From: Megasphaera sp. NM10 | GTDB lineage: Bacteria; Bacillota; Negativicutes; Veillonellales; Megasphaeraceae | Assembly: GCF_000417505.1 (NCBI RefSeq) | Contig: NZ_APHY01000033.1 | Span: 1 to 36,536 of the forward strand | DNA: 36,536 nucleotides | Direction: 5' to 3' | Shown: positions 15,250 to 29,382 of the stretch, one piece after another | How the letters are laid out: each line of letters opens with the position of its first letter | Position numbering within the stretch: position 1 is the stretch's first letter | Translations under genes and position numbers: made by a program | The notes under the pieces: generated by a model | What the model saw: the letters and a program-made list of their open reading frames with translations, nothing else | What the model was told of the DNA's origin: nothing | Database searches by the model: none

Positions 15250-17256
15250 TTATTTTTTCGTTACAACTCCTTTTTCTACGACAAAATCATCCAATTCGTT
15301 TATATATCGACGTACAGTTTTATCCGTTATGTCAAGATAGTCAGCTATATCACTGACCATTACTTGTCCATTTATTAAACAGGCATTATAAGCATTTTCT
15401 AATTGTTGTTTTCTTTCTTCTTTTTTCTTATGACGAACATCTTGACTCTTTTGCCATGGAGCTTTGTCGCAGTCTGGTGTGAGCTTTTCCAGCTCGCCGC
15501 TGTCGTCGACGCGATGGATGGGATACTCGAACCACACGTTCAAGGGCTTGAAGGGCTCGAACTCTCGGAGCGTCCCTTCGATGCGCCAGGCCGTGCCAGG
15601 CAGGCCGACCTGGTCCGACGTGTTCAGCTGAATCATGTCCAGCAGGGCGTCGGCATCGCGGGCGAAGACGCCGGAGCCACTGGCCCGGTCCATGGACCGC
15701 TTGCTTCCCTGGGCGCCCTTGCTGTGATGGTGACAGTAGATGACGGCGCAGTTCAGCTCGGTGCAGACCTTGTCGAACTGATTGCATAAGTGGGCCATCT
15801 GGTCGGCGCTGTTTTCGTCGCCTGTGATGATCTTATAAATCGGGTCGATGATGATGGCCGTGTAATTCTTCTTGGATGCCCGGCGGATGAGCTTCGGCGC
15901 CAGCTTATCCATAGGGATGGATTTGCCGCGCAGTTCCCAAATGTCGATATTGGTAATGTTGTTGGCCGGCCATCCCAGGGCGTCATATACGTCCTTGAAG
16001 CGGTGCAGACAGCTCGGCCGGTCCAGTTCCAGGTTGACGTACAGGACGCGCCCCTGGGAGCAGTACCAGTTGAGCCACTTCCGTCCTTCGGCGATAGCAA
16101 TGGCCATCTCGATGAGGGCGAAGGACTTGCCGGCTTTCGATGGGCCTGCCAGCATCATCTTGTGCCCTTTCCGCAGCACGCCCTCAATAAGTGACGGCGA
16201 TAGCGGCGGCAGGTCGTTCCATACGTCTTTCAGGCTTTCTGGCTCCGGCAGGTCGTCGTTGACGGCCTCGATCCATTCACGCCATTCTACAAAGTTTTCC
16301 TTGCCCAGGTTGGTGTCGATGAGATACTGTTTCTTGCCATCCCGAATAACGCCAGGCATCCGGGACAACCGGGACGGGTTCCGGTTCTGCGTGTCGATGG
16401 CCAGGCCGTTCTTGCGGCAGATGGCATAGAGGTAGTCGACGCGCTTCCGATATTCTTCATAGTTGCCGGCATCGATGTGGACGATGGCATGAACGCTTTT
16501 CCCGCCGCTGTAGACCAGGCAGGCAACGGGCAGTTCCAGCTGTCGGATGATTTCGTTCTGCTTTTCCAGCTCCATCGAGTCGGACTCGACCAGGGCGAAA
16601 CGGAAGTCCGTCACGTTTTCGTTACGGACGCCTTTGCCGTCCAGCGGATTGAACCGGATCCAGGCGCCGACCTTGGGGTTGTAGTCCCCCAGGACGGCTC
16701 CCAGGTCTCCGTCACAGACCGTCAGCTCTTCGATGAGTTCCCCTGCAGTACGGCCATAGTTCCCTTTATTCGGCAGGAACTTCCCGTCTTTTTCCCAGGA
16801 GCTCGTTACATAGCCGACGTAGTCGGTACTATCAAACAGCGTCGAAAGATACTTGATGAGGTCTTTGACCGGGTCCCAGTTATCACCGGGGGCTTCCAGC
16901 TCCCGCCCTTCGACCCAGTTCTTGTCAACAACGACCTGGTCATCCCGTTCGGGAATCATGTCGTCCCAGTCATAGGCGATGTCGGGGCCGGCTGATGAGG
17001 TCCAGCCGCCCCGCTTCGCCATGTCGACAATCGTAGCGCCGGTGACTAAAGACGTAGCGTTATTGTCAAAAGTGTTCCACTTCCGGACACATTCGCCGGA
17101 ATGATACCGACCGGCGTCGCGAAGGCTCCAGGTATCCCAGTCGGCGACGCTGTAGCCTTCGAGTTTTAACGCCATGCCTACATTTACCCACTCCTGATAG
17201 GTGCAGAACGACGGGTCAATATAGTCCAGGAGGGGTATGAGATTGATGTTTTCCAA
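15250..17256 (-). CDS. Phage primase-helicase (PriCT, primase-like and RecA-type ATPase domains)
   Basis: A 668-residue protein with a TTG start (17256) after AAAGGAGGGCGGGC. Residues 1-85 resemble the PriCT domain (CTYQEWVNVGMALKLEGY). The block 215-265, with ALVESDS and YSGGKSVHAIVHID, resembles archaeo-eukaryotic type primases. From about 350 it is a RepA/AAA_25-like hexameric helicase ATPase with Walker A GPSKAGKS (371-378), the strand YTAIIIDPIYKI (Walker B) and CHHHSKGAQGSKR. A C-terminal helix-turn-helix (about 625-660, MVSDIADYLDITDKTVRRYI) may bind the origin. It acts with the adjacent SF2 helicase in phage replication. The primase assignment is by motif resemblance. Confidence 0.85.
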   Translation of the reverse strand: MENINLIPLLDYIDPSFCTYQEWVNVGMALKLEGYSVADWDTWSLRDAGRYHSGECVRKWNTFDNNATSLVTGATIVDMAKRGGWTSSAGPDIAYDWDDMIPERDDQVVVDKNWVEGRELEAPGDNWDPVKDLIKYLSTLFDSTDYVGYVTSSWEKDGKFLPNKGNYGRTAGELIEELTVCDGDLGAVLGDYNPKVGAWIRFNPLDGKGVRNENVTDFRFALVESDSMELEKQNEIIRQLELPVACLVYSGGKSVHAIVHIDAGNYEEYRKRVDYLYAICRKNGLAIDTQNRNPSRLSRMPGVIRDGKKQYLIDTNLGKENFVEWREWIEAVNDDLPEPESLKDVWNDLPPLSPSLIEGVLRKGHKMMLAGPSKAGKSFALIEMAIAIAEGRKWLNWYCSQGRVLYVNLELDRPSCLHRFKDVYDALGWPANNITNIDIWELRGKSIPMDKLAPKLIRRASKKNYTAIIIDPIYKIITGDENSADQMAHLCNQFDKVCTELNCAVIYCHHHSKGAQGSKRSMDRASGSGVFARDADALLDMIQLNTSDQVGLPGTAWRIEGTLREFEPFKPLNVWFEYPIHRVDDSGELEKLTPDCDKAPWQKSQDVRHKKKEERKQQLENAYNACLINGQVMVSDIADYLDITDKTVRRYINELDDFVVEKGVVTKK

Positions 17257-17271
17257 TATGCCCGCCCTCCT

Positions 17272-19914
17272 TTATTCTGGCTGGTACGTCGCCGGGATGA
17301 TACCGGCCGGCATCCGCCAGCCAGCGGCTGCAATACGCCCGATGAGCTTAGACGCCGCTGCAAAGGACCAGGTGCCGACATGCCGGAAGCCGCGGGCCTC
17401 CAACAGCCGGATTTGCCGAGCCGTTGCAAGCCCCAGTTCCTTGCGCTTGATGAGCCGGTCCAGTAACAGCTTGGCCTTGCCGGCGTTTTCGATTTCATCG
17501 GGGATGATACCGAACTTTTCCAGGGCCTTCAGCTGCTTGTCCGATGCCGGCATCATTTCCCAACCAAATGAAGGCACGTAATCTGCCAGGTCTTGCGCCT
17601 GGATGGACATTTCAAACTGCAGCGGATCTACCAGTTTCCGCTTGCGCTTCTTCATGGCTGCCAGCTTTTCTGCCAGAGCGGCTTCGCGGTCGGCGACGAC
17701 GTCTTCTGCCGCTTCTTTTTCCAGGACTTCCAGGTCTGTTGGCTCGCCGGATTCGTTGAGCTTTTCCGTCATCTTCTTGGCCACGTCTTCCGTTTCGGCG
17801 ATGAGGCATGCTGGACGGCACAGCTCGTGCTTTTCCGTATTCCAGAGGAAGTCGAGAAGCAGCACTTCTTCCTTGCCTGGGAAGAGCCGCGTACCGCGTC
17901 CGACCATTTGACTGTACAGGCTGCGGCTCTTTGTAGCCCGCAGGACAATGACGCAGTCTACAGATGGGCAGTCCCAGCCTTCCGTCAGCAGCATGGAGTT
18001 ACAGAGGACGTTGTATTTGCCGGCATCAAAGTCGGCCAGGACCTGCGCCCGGTCTTCGCTGTTGCCATTGACTTCGGCGGCCCGGAAGCCGGCTTCATTC
18101 AGGATGTCACAGAATTTCTGGCTCGTTGCAACGAGCGGCAGGAAGACGACGGTCTTTCGGTCTTTGCAGTAGGCCTGCATTTCCCTGGCAATCTGGTCGA
18201 GATACGGGTCCAGCGCCGTCCCCAGTTCACCAGCCTTGTAGTCGCCGGCCGAAAAGCCGACGCCGGAAATATCGATCTGTAGTGGAATCGTCTGGGCTAC
18301 GATACGGCAGAGATAGCCTTCTTTAATGGCCTGGACTAAGCTGTATTCGTAAGCCAGGCTATCGTAGTAGCTTCCCAGATTGCGCATGTCGGCCCTGTCC
18401 GGCGTGGCCGTGACGCCTAAGACCTTGGCATCACTAAAGTACTGTAAGACGCGCTGATAGCTGTCTGAGACGCTGTGATGGGCTTCGTCGATGATGATTG
18501 TGTCGAAGTAGTCCGCCGCGAATTGATGCAGCCGCTTTTCCCGTGTCAGTGTCTGGACACTGCCGACGACGATGCGCCGCCAGGACCCGAGGCAGGTCTG
18601 TTCGGCCTTTTCCACGGCACTTATCAGCCCTGTCGCTTTCTCGATTTTATCGCTGGCCTGCTCCAGGAGCTCGCCGCGATGGGCCATGATAAGGACCCGT
18701 TCGCCGACCCGGACCCGGTCCTCAGCGATTTTGGCGAAAACAATGGTCTTGCCACAATTATGGGTGATTGTAAAATCATCTAATAAATAACGGTTGTCTC
18801 CATCAACAGTAAAGCCGATGTATGCGCCTGTCCCAATGGATTCCACAGTGAATCCGGTAACAAGAACATTTTTCTTTTGTTTTCGTGGAGTAGCCATTTT
18901 CCGCTTAACTTTCATAGGGATTTTATCGCAGTTCCCACTAATACTAACCCGGTAGTATGTTCCTACAAAATTATTACATCCCTTTTTACAGGGTGTAACA
19001 TAGGCCGCGAGCCCAACCGATCTACACATAAAGGCTAAATCATTAGAAAGGCGTTCGGATTTAGAAATAAAATCATAGCCGTTACATGTAAGATGGCCAT
19101 CGCTATCTAACAATCCAGCAATGACGTTAAGACGTACGGCCACGGGCCCCGTTTTATATATATCAGGTACTTGTTTTGTAGCAGATGTTTTTCCTCTCAT
19201 GCCTAAATCTTTCAAAGAACGAATAAAGGCAGAGCGAGTATATGCTTTTTTACTGGCAAAAATATAGGTTATCGCTTTTCCAGCAGGTTCTGTACGAATC
19301 CGCAAATCCAATAATTCTGCTTGTTGGTGAATGACATTCACCACTTCAGCATCCATGGTTGTGATACTGACAGAGGCTCCATTCAAATTACCATCTCCTA
19401 ATAATATTCCCAAAAAATAAGGATCAATAGGATAATCGGCTTGATGAGAATGATAGAAAGTAATGGCATCTGCTCGAATCAGTTTGTGGATATGTTTTTT
19501 CCACTTGCTCCAGGTAAGCCATTCTTTTACAGAAACATCAATAATTTCACCACCATGTTTTTCACTTGGATATACAGGATGATTCGATTCTTTGGTTCGT
19601 TTTAACGTTAGCATATGATTTTCATCTACGACGAAAGTGTTGCCTTTTACCGGGCAAATTTTATACAAATATCCTTCTCCACGGATGATTTGAAGGATAT
19701 GCCGGGGAGTACCATCGCTCCCCAATAGGCAATCTTTTAGCTGGACATCTTCCACCTTTTTAATGCTTCCATCCGCTAACAATACTTTTTCTCCGATGGC
19801 ATGGCATCCTGTAGGAAGGACCAGGAGTGTTTTGGTATGGCCGCTGTCCCATTCATGCAGGACGGCCTGTTCGGCCTCCTGCTGATAGGGACGCAGCGTG
19901 ACGTCGCTGCTCAT
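17272..19914 (-). CDS. SF2 DEAD/DEAH-type helicase interrupted by an intein
   Basis: The frame codes for 880 residues, of which 350 (37-386) are an intein; the spliced helicase is about 530 residues. The exteins join to give LVLPTG-CGKTIVFAKI, a Walker A motif that exists only after splicing. DEAH is at 476-479 (IIIDEAHHS), followed by VTATPDR (motif III), and motif VI is in MVGRGTRLFPG. The C-terminal 200 residues are Lys/Glu-rich and then helical. Related phage helicases work with a primase and an ssDNA-binding partner. Its ATG overlaps the end of the DUF669 gene, and its stop lies just before the primase-helicase start, so these genes form one replication operon. Confidence 0.95.
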   Translation of the reverse strand: MSSDVTLRPYQQEAEQAVLHEWDSGHTKTLLVLPTGCHAIGEKVLLADGSIKKVEDVQLKDCLLGSDGTPRHILQIIRGEGYLYKICPVKGNTFVVDENHMLTLKRTKESNHPVYPSEKHGGEIIDVSVKEWLTWSKWKKHIHKLIRADAITFYHSHQADYPIDPYFLGILLGDGNLNGASVSITTMDAEVVNVIHQQAELLDLRIRTEPAGKAITYIFASKKAYTRSAFIRSLKDLGMRGKTSATKQVPDIYKTGPVAVRLNVIAGLLDSDGHLTCNGYDFISKSERLSNDLAFMCRSVGLAAYVTPCKKGCNNFVGTYYRVSISGNCDKIPMKVKRKMATPRKQKKNVLVTGFTVESIGTGAYIGFTVDGDNRYLLDDFTITHNCGKTIVFAKIAEDRVRVGERVLIMAHRGELLEQASDKIEKATGLISAVEKAEQTCLGSWRRIVVGSVQTLTREKRLHQFAADYFDTIIIDEAHHSVSDSYQRVLQYFSDAKVLGVTATPDRADMRNLGSYYDSLAYEYSLVQAIKEGYLCRIVAQTIPLQIDISGVGFSAGDYKAGELGTALDPYLDQIAREMQAYCKDRKTVVFLPLVATSQKFCDILNEAGFRAAEVNGNSEDRAQVLADFDAGKYNVLCNSMLLTEGWDCPSVDCVIVLRATKSRSLYSQMVGRGTRLFPGKEEVLLLDFLWNTEKHELCRPACLIAETEDVAKKMTEKLNESGEPTDLEVLEKEAAEDVVADREAALAEKLAAMKKRKRKLVDPLQFEMSIQAQDLADYVPSFGWEMMPASDKQLKALEKFGIIPDEIENAGKAKLLLDRLIKRKELGLATARQIRLLEARGFRHVGTWSFAAASKLIGRIAAAGWRMPAGIIPATYQPE
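18757..19806 (-). mobile_element. LAGLIDADG homing-endonuclease intein in the helicase P-loop
   Basis: Splicing residues are clear: Cys37 as first residue (CHAIGEKVLLADGSIKKVED, block A), a block B with His100 (VVDENHMLTL, with Asp where Thr is usual), and the end TITHN (His385, Asn386) followed by Cys387 as +1 residue. Between them are two dodecapeptide motifs, FLGILLGDGN (167-176) and IAGLLDSDGH (265-274), each with its catalytic acidic residue, so the endonuclease looks intact. The DNA is visibly richer in A and T than the helicase flanks, a sign of later acquisition. The endonuclease would recognise the uninterrupted LPTGCGKT coding site in related phages. Confidence 0.95.
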
Positions 19915-20390
19915 TTAGAACGCCCCCTGTGTGTAAGTAGGACGCTGCGCCGGCTGACTCTGCGGCTGTGAAGCTTGGGAGCTGCCGTCTTGTCGTAGAA
20001 GCGTTTCACGTCGTTGTAATCTTTCCCATTGTACTTGCGGACGCTGACCTGCATACGGCCTGTCGCTCCGATGAGCTGATTCCAGGCAATTCGGAAATGG
20101 CCATCGCCACGCTGCATCATGCCGACAGCGCAGGCGAAGTTAGTCAGCTGCCATTCACTTTTGGAGTGCAGGAAGAGATTCTGGCGGATGCGCCCTTTCG
20201 TGCCGTCGGGCGTCTGCACTTCATATGTCAGCTTGGCCATCGGGCAGGGCGGCATCTTGTCGCTGCCGTCGAAGTGGGCCCGCTCAAAATCAACGATCGT
20301 AAAATCATAATCACCGGGAGGGACGATTTGAAACGAGTCTTCCACTTCGGTAAATTCATCATCCCAACTAAATGCGCGTTCTTCTGTCAT
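19911..20390 (-). CDS. DUF669 family phage protein, probably frameshifted near its C-terminus
   Basis: The start is the ATG at 20390 (MTEERAFSWDDEF), 8 bases after AGGAGG; an ATG at 20396 is too close. The body matches DUF669 proteins (QIVPPGDYDFTIVDFERAHF, WNQLIGATGRMQVSVRKYNG, DYNDVKRFY), which sit in replication modules and may bind single-stranded DNA. After DKTAAPK the frame becomes Arg/Ser-rich and ends HRGRSK. The -1 frame of the same stretch encodes a Gln/Pro-rich tail ending TYTQGAF, the usual style for this family, and stops directly before the helicase ATG. A single-base indel near 19975-19985 is therefore likely. Confidence 0.82.
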   Translation of the reverse strand: MTEERAFSWDDEFTEVEDSFQIVPPGDYDFTIVDFERAHFDGSDKMPPCPMAKLTYEVQTPDGTKGRIRQNLFLHSKSEWQLTNFACAVGMMQRGDGHFRIAWNQLIGATGRMQVSVRKYNGKDYNDVKRFYDKTAAPKLHSRRVSRRSVLLTHRGRSK

Positions 20391-20414
20391 TGTCATTACC
20401 TCCTAATCAAAACA

Positions 20415-21500
20415 TTAAAACGGAACTTTCTTTAACTGATTGATAACCTGCAACATCTGCGGAAAAGCCGCTACCAGACATCCCATGACGAAGTCTTCCG
20501 GGTAATCTGCAATCGGCATATCGGCCGGGAAATATCCCTTATGAGCCACGGCCTGCTGAATATCCTGGGCTGTAACATTGTTGGCTGTCATGAGGTCTGC
20601 CAGGGCCTGGGGAATAGCTTCGGGTGCCTGGACGTCGGGCTGCTTGGTTTCTGCCTGGACAGGCGGCTTCGGCGATTCTTTGGGCGGGGCAGGTGCTTCC
20701 GGAATCAGATCCGGTTCAGCAGGTCCCGGCTGTGGCGGTACTGCCGGAGAAACGGGCGGCTGCGGCGGCGTTGTATTCATGACCGGGATGCAGTGCGCGA
20801 TTTCCTGATAGTCAAAAGACAGTTCTTCGGCCAGGCCGTGCCGGTTCTTGGCATCCCAGCACGGGTTGTGTGCCGTGTACATGACCCGCTTGCCGCCGCT
20901 GACTTTCTTCTTGTTGTCCTTTGTCGTGATGACGATTTCCTTGTAATTCACAAAGAGAACCATGTCCGCCCATTCTTTGACCAGGGCGGCGCACTGGTTG
21001 CCGGCCTTTTGTCCCAATTTCAGCTCATACCGGTCGTATGCCCCCGTTTCTTCTGGGAGCTCGAACTTGCGGATAATGCTGTGAGCCGTCAGGACAACAT
21101 TCATGCCGGCGTCAATCAAATCCGACAAGCTGTCTAAAAGCCGCCCGAATTCTTCTTTGACGTATGTGTAGCCCTTGCCATACCCGAAGTCTTCAATGCC
21201 TACCTTCCCATTGGACTGGCAGACAGCTTCTTCGCAAAGCCGTTCAGCCCAGTCCGCTGTATCAATAACCAGTGTATGGTAGCCCATCGTATCTCCCTTG
21301 AGGTCCTTGATATACTGCTTGAGCATCTGCCAGGACGTCGGCCTGGGCAGGCGGTCTACTTCGAGGTGCGACGTGCTGCCTTCCGTGTCGATGAACAGGG
21401 GTTTTGGGAATTGCGCGGCAAACGTTGACTTGCCGATACCTTCCGGGCCGTAGATGACAACTTTCTGAGGCTTTATGATTTTCCCTGAGATGATCTTCAT
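20415..21500 (-). CDS. Sak4-like AAA ATPase (phage recombination mediator)
   Basis: A 361-residue protein with Walker A YGPEGIGKST (17-26), a Walker B-like strand (TLVIDTADW, about 76-84) and a sensor-like VVLTAHSIIR. This RecA-core-only layout matches the phage nucleotide-binding family that includes Sak4, which stimulates single-strand annealing. Residues about 245-305 are a Pro-rich linker, followed by a helical C-terminal domain (LADLMTANNVTAQDIQQAVA). It starts 13 bases downstream of the SbcC-like gene stop and precedes DUF669, a common recombination-replication cassette. The Sak4 role is by family, not shown here. Confidence 0.82.
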   Translation of the reverse strand: MKIISGKIIKPQKVVIYGPEGIGKSTFAAQFPKPLFIDTEGSTSHLEVDRLPRPTSWQMLKQYIKDLKGDTMGYHTLVIDTADWAERLCEEAVCQSNGKVGIEDFGYGKGYTYVKEEFGRLLDSLSDLIDAGMNVVLTAHSIIRKFELPEETGAYDRYELKLGQKAGNQCAALVKEWADMVLFVNYKEIVITTKDNKKKVSGGKRVMYTAHNPCWDAKNRHGLAEELSFDYQEIAHCIPVMNTTPPQPPVSPAVPPQPGPAEPDLIPEAPAPPKESPKPPVQAETKQPDVQAPEAIPQALADLMTANNVTAQDIQQAVAHKGYFPADMPIADYPEDFVMGCLVAAFPQMLQVINQLKKVPF

Positions 21501-25534: not shown

Positions 25535-26254
25535 ATGAACGGCACACTTATTTTAGGTATCGTTGAAATTCTAATTATCATTTGGTACATATTAGCGAAG
25601 AAAAATCCACAAAAATACGCTCCATTTTTAAAAGCTCCTTATGGTAAAAAACGAGGCCTTATATTTTTAGTGGCTTTTATAATTTGTGGCTTTATTGGAA
25701 TGGCCATAAATCCCCAGCCAGCTACGCCAGCCTCTCAGCAAACTCAGCAAACACAACAATCAACAGAAAAGGCATCAAAGCCCAAAGAACAAACTAGCAG
25801 TAAAGAATTTGATGCTTATAAAAAATTTGTTTCAATCCCCATGGGTAGCGATTACGATACGGTAAAAAACACATTAGGAGTGAATGGCCAATTAAAGCAT
25901 GAAAATGAAATAGCCGGCATTAAGAGCCAGGCATATGAATTTAAAATCGGGTCGGCCATTGCTATGATGACTTTCCAAAAAGGCCGCCTTACCAGCAAAG
26001 CAATGGATAGTCTCTCCTTCTACAAACAAAAAGGAGAAAAAATTACCATGCCCGAATTCAATCAGATCCAAATCGGCATGTCTTATGAACAAGTCAAAGA
26101 AATCTTCAAACGTGATGGGTTGCTAAAGTCTGAAACAAATATCATGGGCACTGGATCACGACTAATCTCCTGGATTAATTCGGATGGTTCAAATGCTATT
26201 ATTACTTTCGGACCAAACGGAGTAGACTCTAAAACACAAACTAATTTAAAATAA
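25535..26254 (+). CDS. Membrane protein with two repeated C-terminal domains, lysogeny module
   Basis: A 239-residue protein following the repressor by 20 bases with AAAAGGAGG upstream. It has two membrane spans (about 3-20 and 40-58), a Gln/Thr/Ser/Lys linker (66-90), then two similar units (about 95-160 and 170-237). Each opens with an IPMGSDYDTVKN/IQIGMSYEQVKE pattern and closes with a strand and turn (MMTFQKGRLTSK/IITFGPNGVDSK), as in BLIP-like/DUF3862 or SmpA-type domains. DNA is AT-rich. Its place beside the repressor suggests expression in the lysogen. Superinfection exclusion is a reasonable guess but not shown. Confidence 0.75.
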   Translation: MNGTLILGIVEILIIIWYILAKKNPQKYAPFLKAPYGKKRGLIFLVAFIICGFIGMAINPQPATPASQQTQQTQQSTEKASKPKEQTSSKEFDAYKKFVSIPMGSDYDTVKNTLGVNGQLKHENEIAGIKSQAYEFKIGSAIAMMTFQKGRLTSKAMDSLSFYKQKGEKITMPEFNQIQIGMSYEQVKEIFKRDGLLKSETNIMGTGSRLISWINSDGSNAIITFGPNGVDSKTQTNLK

Positions 26255-26428: not shown

Positions 26429-27607
26429 ATGCACGTTTACAAAAAGCCGTCAGGGCTATGGGCCTACAAAATTGACATCGGTAAAAACCCACGAACGGGG
26501 AAACGGCAGCAGAAAGAAAAAGGTGGTTTCAAGCGGGCCAAGGATGCCAGGATAGCTGGAGAGGAAGCACTGCAGCGATATCGGACTAAGGGCTTCGCGC
26601 GGCCGGAATCTGTGACGTTTGGGGATTTTGCAAAAGAGTGGCTAAAAGCATACGCGATTACTGCTAAAGTATCCTCTGTTCGGATCCGAAAGCACCAGCT
26701 GGGGCACCTGAACCGGTACTTTGAAAAAATCCCCATTCAAGAAATTCACAAGAAGCAATATCAGGATGCTTTATTGTCTCTTACCAAGACGCTGGCTCCG
26801 AATACAATATCAGGTATCCATGCTACAGCCAAAATGATTTTCAAACGGGCCATAGAATACGAGCTTATTTATTCAGACCCGACGGAATTCGCTACAGTGC
26901 CCCGGCCAAAGAGGAAAATCGTAGATCCAGACGAAAACGTCCCTGCTTATCTGGAAAAGTCTCAGCTTCTCGATTTCCTGCAAACAGCGAAGGAAAAAGG
27001 AATCGCGCCCGATTATCCTTTATTTATGCTGCTGGCTTATACGGGCTTGCGGATCGGAGAGGCCCTGGCTCTCACCTGGGAAGATATAGACTTCAAGCAG
27101 AATATTGTCAAAGTGTCAAAAACACTTTACAATCCGACGAATAACGCTGAAAAATATGAGCTTCTCCCTCCGAAAACAAAAACATCGGTCCGAGTGGTCA
27201 CCATGCCGGCACACCTAGAAAAGGTACTGGCTGCATTCAAGTTCCAAGTCTCTAACCTCCGGATAGAATATAAAGAGTTGTGGCACTATCCCAAGGGCAG
27301 TAAATTAGGCTTCGTTTTTACGGCTCCGGCCCATCCTGGGCATCCTCTTACCCAGCGGCTCGTACAGACTCGTATAGACCGTATTCACCGTTTGATGGAT
27401 AACCCGGTGAGCCTTCACATACACCCCCATATTTTCCGTCATACCCATGCTTCCCTGCTGGCAGAGGCCGGGATAGACCTGGTACAAATCATGAAACGTT
27501 TGGGCCATGCTGACGATACGACGACGCGACAGATATATCTGCACATCACCAAAACGCTGGCCACAGAAACAGCAGAAAAGTTTGACGAGCTGCTAAATAA
27601 GGCATAA
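26429..27607 (+). CDS. int: Tyrosine-type integrase
   Basis: A 392-residue site-specific recombinase. The N-terminus holds an arm-binding domain (about 1-55, AP2-like, rich in basic residues), then a SAM-like core-binding domain (about 62-165). The catalytic domain has Arg208 (TGLRIGE), His334-x-x-Arg337 (HIFRH), His360 (LGHAD) and the nucleophile Tyr370 (RQIYLHI). All expected residues are present, so it should be active. Start: ATG with AAGGAGGTAA upstream. It is the last phage gene before the chromosome, so the attachment site should follow it. Confidence 0.95.
   Translation: MHVYKKPSGLWAYKIDIGKNPRTGKRQQKEKGGFKRAKDARIAGEEALQRYRTKGFARPESVTFGDFAKEWLKAYAITAKVSSVRIRKHQLGHLNRYFEKIPIQEIHKKQYQDALLSLTKTLAPNTISGIHATAKMIFKRAIEYELIYSDPTEFATVPRPKRKIVDPDENVPAYLEKSQLLDFLQTAKEKGIAPDYPLFMLLAYTGLRIGEALALTWEDIDFKQNIVKVSKTLYNPTNNAEKYELLPPKTKTSVRVVTMPAHLEKVLAAFKFQVSNLRIEYKELWHYPKGSKLGFVFTAPAHPGHPLTQRLVQTRIDRIHRLMDNPVSLHIHPHIFRHTHASLLAEAGIDLVQIMKRLGHADDTTTRQIYLHITKTLATETAEKFDELLNKA

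Positions 27608-27735: not shown

Positions 27736-29382
<1,647 letters not shown>

Follow-up and report, generated by a model that had tools for sequence, protein, structure and literature searches.

Inteins in phage helicases and at P-loop sites

Inteins in helicases and inteins in P-loops are already known. The intein described here (the window intein, the window being the whole stretch of 36,536 nucleotides of Megasphaera sp. NM10 DNA that was analyzed) has relatives of its own family in phage helicases, namely in Klebsiella phage JD001, Vibrio phage 393E50-1 and phiHSIC (ORF42), with 34–41% identity over the whole intein. Further members with 34–41% identity occur in Salmonella phages VSt10, 5sent1 and fmb-p1 and in Escherichia phage HelliStehle_Bas95. 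Several of these phage genes are annotated as helicases; two Salmonella phage records read ‘intein-containing helicase’ and ‘putative intein containing helicase precursor’, and a feature of Bas95 is labeled ‘similar to intein’. In six phage records, a set that leaves aside 5sent1 and fmb-p1, every insertion lies in a P-loop-like GxxGK motif. Five of the six are inserted at GK|T; the sixth, phiHSIC, has its intein at TG|CGK, as in the window helicase.

PI-SceI, the VMA1 intein of yeast (454 residues), has the same architecture of intein and LAGLIDADG endonuclease and is approximately 21% identical to the window intein in a structural alignment. Its host is a V-ATPase subunit, with a site that passages of PMC8966425 place some 20 residues from the P-loop, whereas the window intein interrupts the P-loop itself in a ResIII helicase; host gene and site are therefore not those of VMA1. 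The inteins of mycobacteriophage TerL and mycobacterial DnaB also occupy the Walker A motif of a nucleic-acid ATPase, but in other host proteins (passages of PMC5050341 and PMC6195587). The two TerL sites, a and b, are P-loop sites one residue apart (passages of PMC5050341), and a DnaB site and the VMA-b site are likewise in P-loops (passages of PMC6195587 and PMC8966425). DnaBi1 of M. smegmatis is described as a class 3 mini-intein without an endonuclease (passages of PMC6195587), unlike the window intein, which is of class 1 and has one. Literature searches of titles and abstract openings returned no description of the window intein.

An intact-looking class 1 intein splits the Walker A loop of the helicase

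The precursor gene (17272..19914, minus strand) encodes an 880-residue phage helicase of the ResIII/DEAD-DEAH type, as identified with Pfam, with an intein. Its N-extein (36 residues; 19807..19914, minus strand) ends in TLLVLPTG, the first half of the Walker A motif, and was compared with two empty alleles (L018 and L019). The C-extein (494 residues and a stop codon; 17272..18756, minus strand) begins with CGKTIVF, which supplies the second half of the motif and the Cys+1 residue. Between them, positions 18757..19806 of the minus strand translate into exactly 350 residues without a stop, from C1 to N350 (residues 37–386 of the precursor), starting with CHAIGEKV and ending with LLDDFTITHN. The boundaries proposed in the preliminary description are thus exact, and its reading of a Walker A loop divided into LPTG and CGKT can be taken directly from the sequence, as can the lack of a continuous Walker A motif in the precursor. 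Joined at this point, the exteins make a protein of 530 residues.

The insert also differs from its host gene in composition, again as first described. Its GC content is 39.4%, against 59.3% in the N-extein and 57.9% in the C-extein, and its GC3 is 32% versus 67% and 71%, respectively. This places the intein at the 1.1 percentile of GC among the window’s 1050-bp windows; the most AT-rich stretch of that size is a different one, at approximately 25.4 kb (GC 37.0%).

A profile search, in which a lack of intein similarity would have counted as a refutation in the preliminary description, matched Pfam intein and LAGLIDADG domains in the insert. Searched alone, the intein matched Hom_end_hint (E 1.1e-18), Hom_end (E 1.2e-6) and LAGLIDADG_3 (E 5.8e-5), all of which passed the curated cut-offs. 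The whole 880-residue protein matched ResIII (E 2.3e-29), Helicase_C (E 1.2e-14) and Hom_end_hint (E 6.4e-18), with LAGLIDADG_3 falling just under its cut-off (20.9 vs 22.5 bits). Among PDB sequences, phmmer matched PI-SceI (E 1.3e-14) and also Prp8 inteins. We modeled the intein with AlphaFold2 from a 57-sequence alignment (mean pLDDT 94.8) and dropped a single-sequence model (pLDDT 34.9). Foldseek and VIA-align searches with the retained model returned PI-SceI as the top match (Z 31.5, 339 residues, rmsd 3.5). The predicted structure also superposes on Prp8 inteins (Z 22.4, 140 residues, rmsd 1.4), consistent with a Hint fold, and has an I-DmoI-like fold in its endonuclease part.

The insert can be divided accordingly into an N-terminal part of the Hint splicing domain (residues 1–122, with C1 and block B; 19441..19806, minus strand; PF05203 and Prp8 inteins), a homing endonuclease domain with approximate limits at residues 123–300 (18907..19440, minus strand; PF05204, PF14528 and the I-DmoI-like fold) and a C-terminal part of the Hint domain (approximately residues 301–350, ending in DDFTITHN; 18757..18906, minus strand). 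The splicing residues and both LAGLIDADG motifs listed in the preliminary description are in place. All class 1 residues are present (C1, block B His64, H349–N350 and Cys+1), and the endonuclease motifs YFLGILLGDG (Asp138; 19390..19419, minus strand) and VIAGLLDSDG (Asp236; 19096..19125, minus strand) keep an aspartate that is found in 86/86 relatives at each position. These relatives are 80 viral-contig loci and 6 phage records, with near copies and the window’s own 100% match counted. C1 and the block B histidine are present in all 86; so is the HN terminus, a count biased by the use of DFT[IV]THN as one of two search patterns. The intein at 18757..19806 is real, far beyond chance, and it looks intact in a known sort of host gene and insertion site.

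A family of inteins with two P-loop positions

Viral-contig relatives other than near copies (95–96% identical) are at most 63% identical to the window intein. The 86 relatives use two positions three residues apart, TG|[CST]GK in 68 and GK|[TS] in 18, the latter group being composed of L121–L123, L125, L126 and 13 viral loci. A tree of 80 distinct sequences requires at least three changes between these P-loop positions. At intein position 2, 67 of the 68 inteins at TG|xGK carry His and 12 of the 18 at GK|T carry Leu. By pattern match only, a DExH-like motif follows the insert in 69 of the 86 host genes; the remaining ones seem to be other P-loop proteins.

We also noted a related helicase with two inteins in an ORF running from base 3 of L011 (CAMBQV010000099.1, labelled as an Akkermansia muciniphila MAG). 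The end of one intein occupies its Walker A site, and a second one, of approximately 340 residues as judged by eye, interrupts the motif II box (DE|C...HN|CHH). Four weak matches in genomes of the same class (L007–L010; E 1.1e-5 to 7.4e-4) were rejected as relatives at the helicase site, as their inteins lack Cys1 and their genes look terminase-like by eye. The host genes resemble those for phage terminase large subunits, and the inteins, also read by eye, show a Trp close to block B, a Cys close to block F and a THN|S junction, as in class 3 (the triplet used for comparison is that of passages of PMC5050341).

A prophage setting for the helicase

The preliminary description had called the host gene a prophage helicase, and the window, which we read as a prophage, supports this with terminase, portal, capsid and integrase genes. 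PHROG families matched 19 of the 20 window ORFs scanned and included, among others, terminase, portal, capsid, scaffold, tail, primase, SSB-like, Sak4-like and integrase functions. The phage integrase lies at 26429..27607 on the plus strand (PHROG 1, E 2.2e-72). The window nearly fills its contig (C33, 36,539 bases) in a genome of 174 contigs. Directly beyond the integrase and converging with it is a groEL-like gene (27736–29367, minus strand; PHROG 5725, E 2.3e-194), which possibly belongs to the chromosome flanking the prophage. On its other side, the integrase is adjoined by an ORF (25535–26254, plus strand) in the window’s most AT-rich kilobase. This moron-type gene matches a PHROG named for the beta-lactamase-inhibitor protein BLIP (E 2.3e-33), the name being an annotation only.

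Occupied and empty alleles coexist in the genus

A scan of 15 genomes of the genus, the window’s own included, identified five close orthologs of the helicase. Three are occupied (the window, G002:C6 and G011:C130) and two are empty (G013:C4 and G011:C179, or L018 and L019), with lengths of 529 and 530 residues. Empty alleles of approximately 530 residues had been sought as support for the intein, and the viral contigs supplied many more: 77 of the best 80 homologs (of at least 570) are empty; the other three carry an intein, and one of these three matches the window at 100%. The scan of genome contigs yielded a single relative. Assembly G011 holds one occupied and one empty allele, each adjoining primase and Sak4 genes; it consists of 200 contigs with approximately 1% contamination, so that both alleles share an assembly but not necessarily a cell.

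On the extein tree, the occupied and empty states require at least eight changes, four of which are forced by well-supported branches. Shuffled states averaged 11.5 changes, and 9 of 500 shuffles were as low as the observed count. These counts do not separate gain from loss; the extein and intein trees were quick reconstructions with many open forks and served for change counts only, with long branches flagged in the extein tree for L132 and L135.

Near copies of the intein have diverged far less than their surroundings

The window and G002 inteins are 93.0% identical in DNA (dS 0.27) and 94.9% in protein, versus 67.1% (dS saturated) and 75.1% for the C-exteins. A viral contig (L013) shows the same pattern, with 95.3% DNA identity in the intein (dS 0.16) and 80.4% in the C-extein (dS 1.13). 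Because the contrast extends to synonymous sites, the similarity between inteins cannot be due to stronger protein constraint. We used neighboring genes as yardsticks of protein divergence from G002: the phage DNA primase (15250..17256, minus strand; PHROG 2597, E 0) is 70.3% identical, the SSB-like protein (19911..20396, minus strand; PHROG 378, E 2.9e-7) 58.3%, the Sak4-like ssDNA annealing protein (20415..21500, minus strand; PHROG 124, E 5e-81) 53.8% and an SbcC-like neighbor 63.8% in its best piece. PHROG 378 is a single strand DNA binding family; the best match of the SSB-like protein is a family of unknown function. In the distant occupied pairs with L006 (of G011) and L015, the inteins are 62.8% and 59.2% identical in DNA versus 64.0% and 64.2% for the C-exteins. 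With no excess of intein identity in these pairs, recent transfer applies only to the near copies. For these, the comparison of sequences suggests that the intein moved between phages recently.

Phage replication modules are mosaic, and the intein could have been swapped as part of a longer segment through homologous recombination instead of by homing driven by its endonuclease. The similarity is, however, limited to the intein, with the C-exteins far more diverged in the comparisons with both G002 and L013 and, for G002, with the primase, SSB-like, Sak4-like and SbcC-like neighbors far more diverged as well. Furthermore, the endonuclease part is under purifying selection, as judged from dN/dS values of 0.085 and 0.126 in two comparisons (Nei–Gojobori, own script). 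A swap of this kind thus appears improbable. The sequences next to the intein show no clear tract of co-conversion, the C-extein identity being at background from the first codons, which leaves some room for other recombination. The N-extein dS between the window and L013 (0.345 over 36 codons) is below that of the C-extein and could reflect a short shared tract.

A probable selfish element at a catalytic loop

We consider it very probable that the insert is a class 1 intein that is selfish and has moved recently. It carries a LAGLIDADG homing endonuclease, intact by its looks, and is inserted at the TG|CGK P-loop site of a helicase in a prophage replication module. Translation would yield the 880-residue precursor with its Walker A motif interrupted. 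By the established class 1 pathway, C1 would attack the Gly-1 bond, Cys+1 would take over the N-extein and Asn350 would then cyclize, joining the exteins into a 530-residue helicase with a restored LPTGCGKT loop. Once free, the intein may cut empty copies of the helicase gene in phages that infect or reside in the same cell, and repair would then copy the intein into them, as the comparison of alleles leads us to propose. Its persistence could be explained by the conserved catalytic loop, which is also a conserved DNA target and where imprecise loss would kill the helicase. A regulatory role is not needed to explain this persistence.

Such a role, which the preliminary description raised as a possible control point of phage replication, would take the form of slow or conditional splicing, for example through redox reactions of Cys1 and Cys+1, that keeps the prophage helicase off until induction. 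The Walker A loop is truly interrupted, cysteines are both splicing nucleophiles, and conditional splicing has been reported for a P-loop intein of mycobacterial DnaB (passages of PMC6195587). Yet 77 of the 80 best viral homologs (of at least 570) and two alleles of the same genus lack the intein, so that the majority of these phages manage without it. Selfish homing would predict just such a recent transfer between diverged helicases, and the canonical positions are as expected, save for the block B Asp, with no sign of impairment. We would therefore give a regulatory switch, which would be an analogy with that DnaB intein, little credence.

Block B (VVDENH, residues 59–64; 19615..19632, minus strand, from the alignment of relatives) has Asp61 three positions before His64. 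The canonical residue at this position is Thr. The Asp pointed out in the preliminary description is indeed present; Thr is not, however, the usual residue in this family, which has Asn in 75 of 86 relatives, Thr in seven and Asp in four. The Asp bearers are the window’s 100% match, two near copies (95–96%) and L130, the sole independent case among the 86, whose intein is 63% identical in protein. Block B of L006 from G011 also has the Asp, in agreement with L130. An Asp common to an intein this distant points to an old, tolerated state and not to a fresh lesion, and damage is unlikely on these alignments. A dead or impaired intein that leaves the helicase a relic, a reading suggested by the departure of Asp61 from Thr, was dropped as most improbable, given the same Asp in the 63%-identical intein (L006/L130), splicing-part dN/dS values of 0.184 and 0.069 in two comparisons (Nei–Gojobori, own script), and an open helicase frame with ResIII and Helicase_C domains in which DEAHH and other positions are invariant (eight homologs, C-extein part).

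The residue after the intein

Cys+1 is present in each of the 15 occupied rows in the helicase set, although the rows are partly redundant (L006 equals L130 over the aligned columns, and L005 and L014 are nearly identical). Empty alleles, including those of the best viral-contig homologs (of at least 570), have Cys in 59 of 79 cases and Thr in 20. Both empty alleles of the same genus, which are the most similar empty ones, have Thr, and the window’s own clade (support 99) is composed of two occupied alleles with Cys and two empty ones with Thr. Once kinship was taken into account, the association between Cys+1 and occupancy was not significant (five independent pairs on supported branches, none opposite; median p 0.5). 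At the TG|xGK site of other hosts, related inteins are followed by Ser in 38 of 68 cases and Thr in 11.

The +1 residue might conceivably decide which alleles can host the intein, LPTGCGKT being invadable and LPTGTGKT either resistant or rewritten to Cys during homing, though we hold this idea as tentative and on balance unlikely. A comparable idea has been put forward for haloarchaeal MCM, in which a residue flanking the intein would have to be co-converted for invasion (passages of PMC10643990). The Thr of the same-genus alleles had prompted us to consider co-conversion as the origin of Cys+1, an explanation weakened by Cys being the majority state of empty alleles (59/79).

Implications for phage inteins

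If the +1 residue did act in this way, the intein would edit or select the Walker A loops that phage helicases carry. The near-identical copies in strongly diverged helicases offer a natural case of a phage intein in spread. With empty and occupied alleles available in one genus, and even in one assembly, homing, target choice between Cys and Thr at +1 and between two P-loop positions, and any effect on prophage replication become testable.
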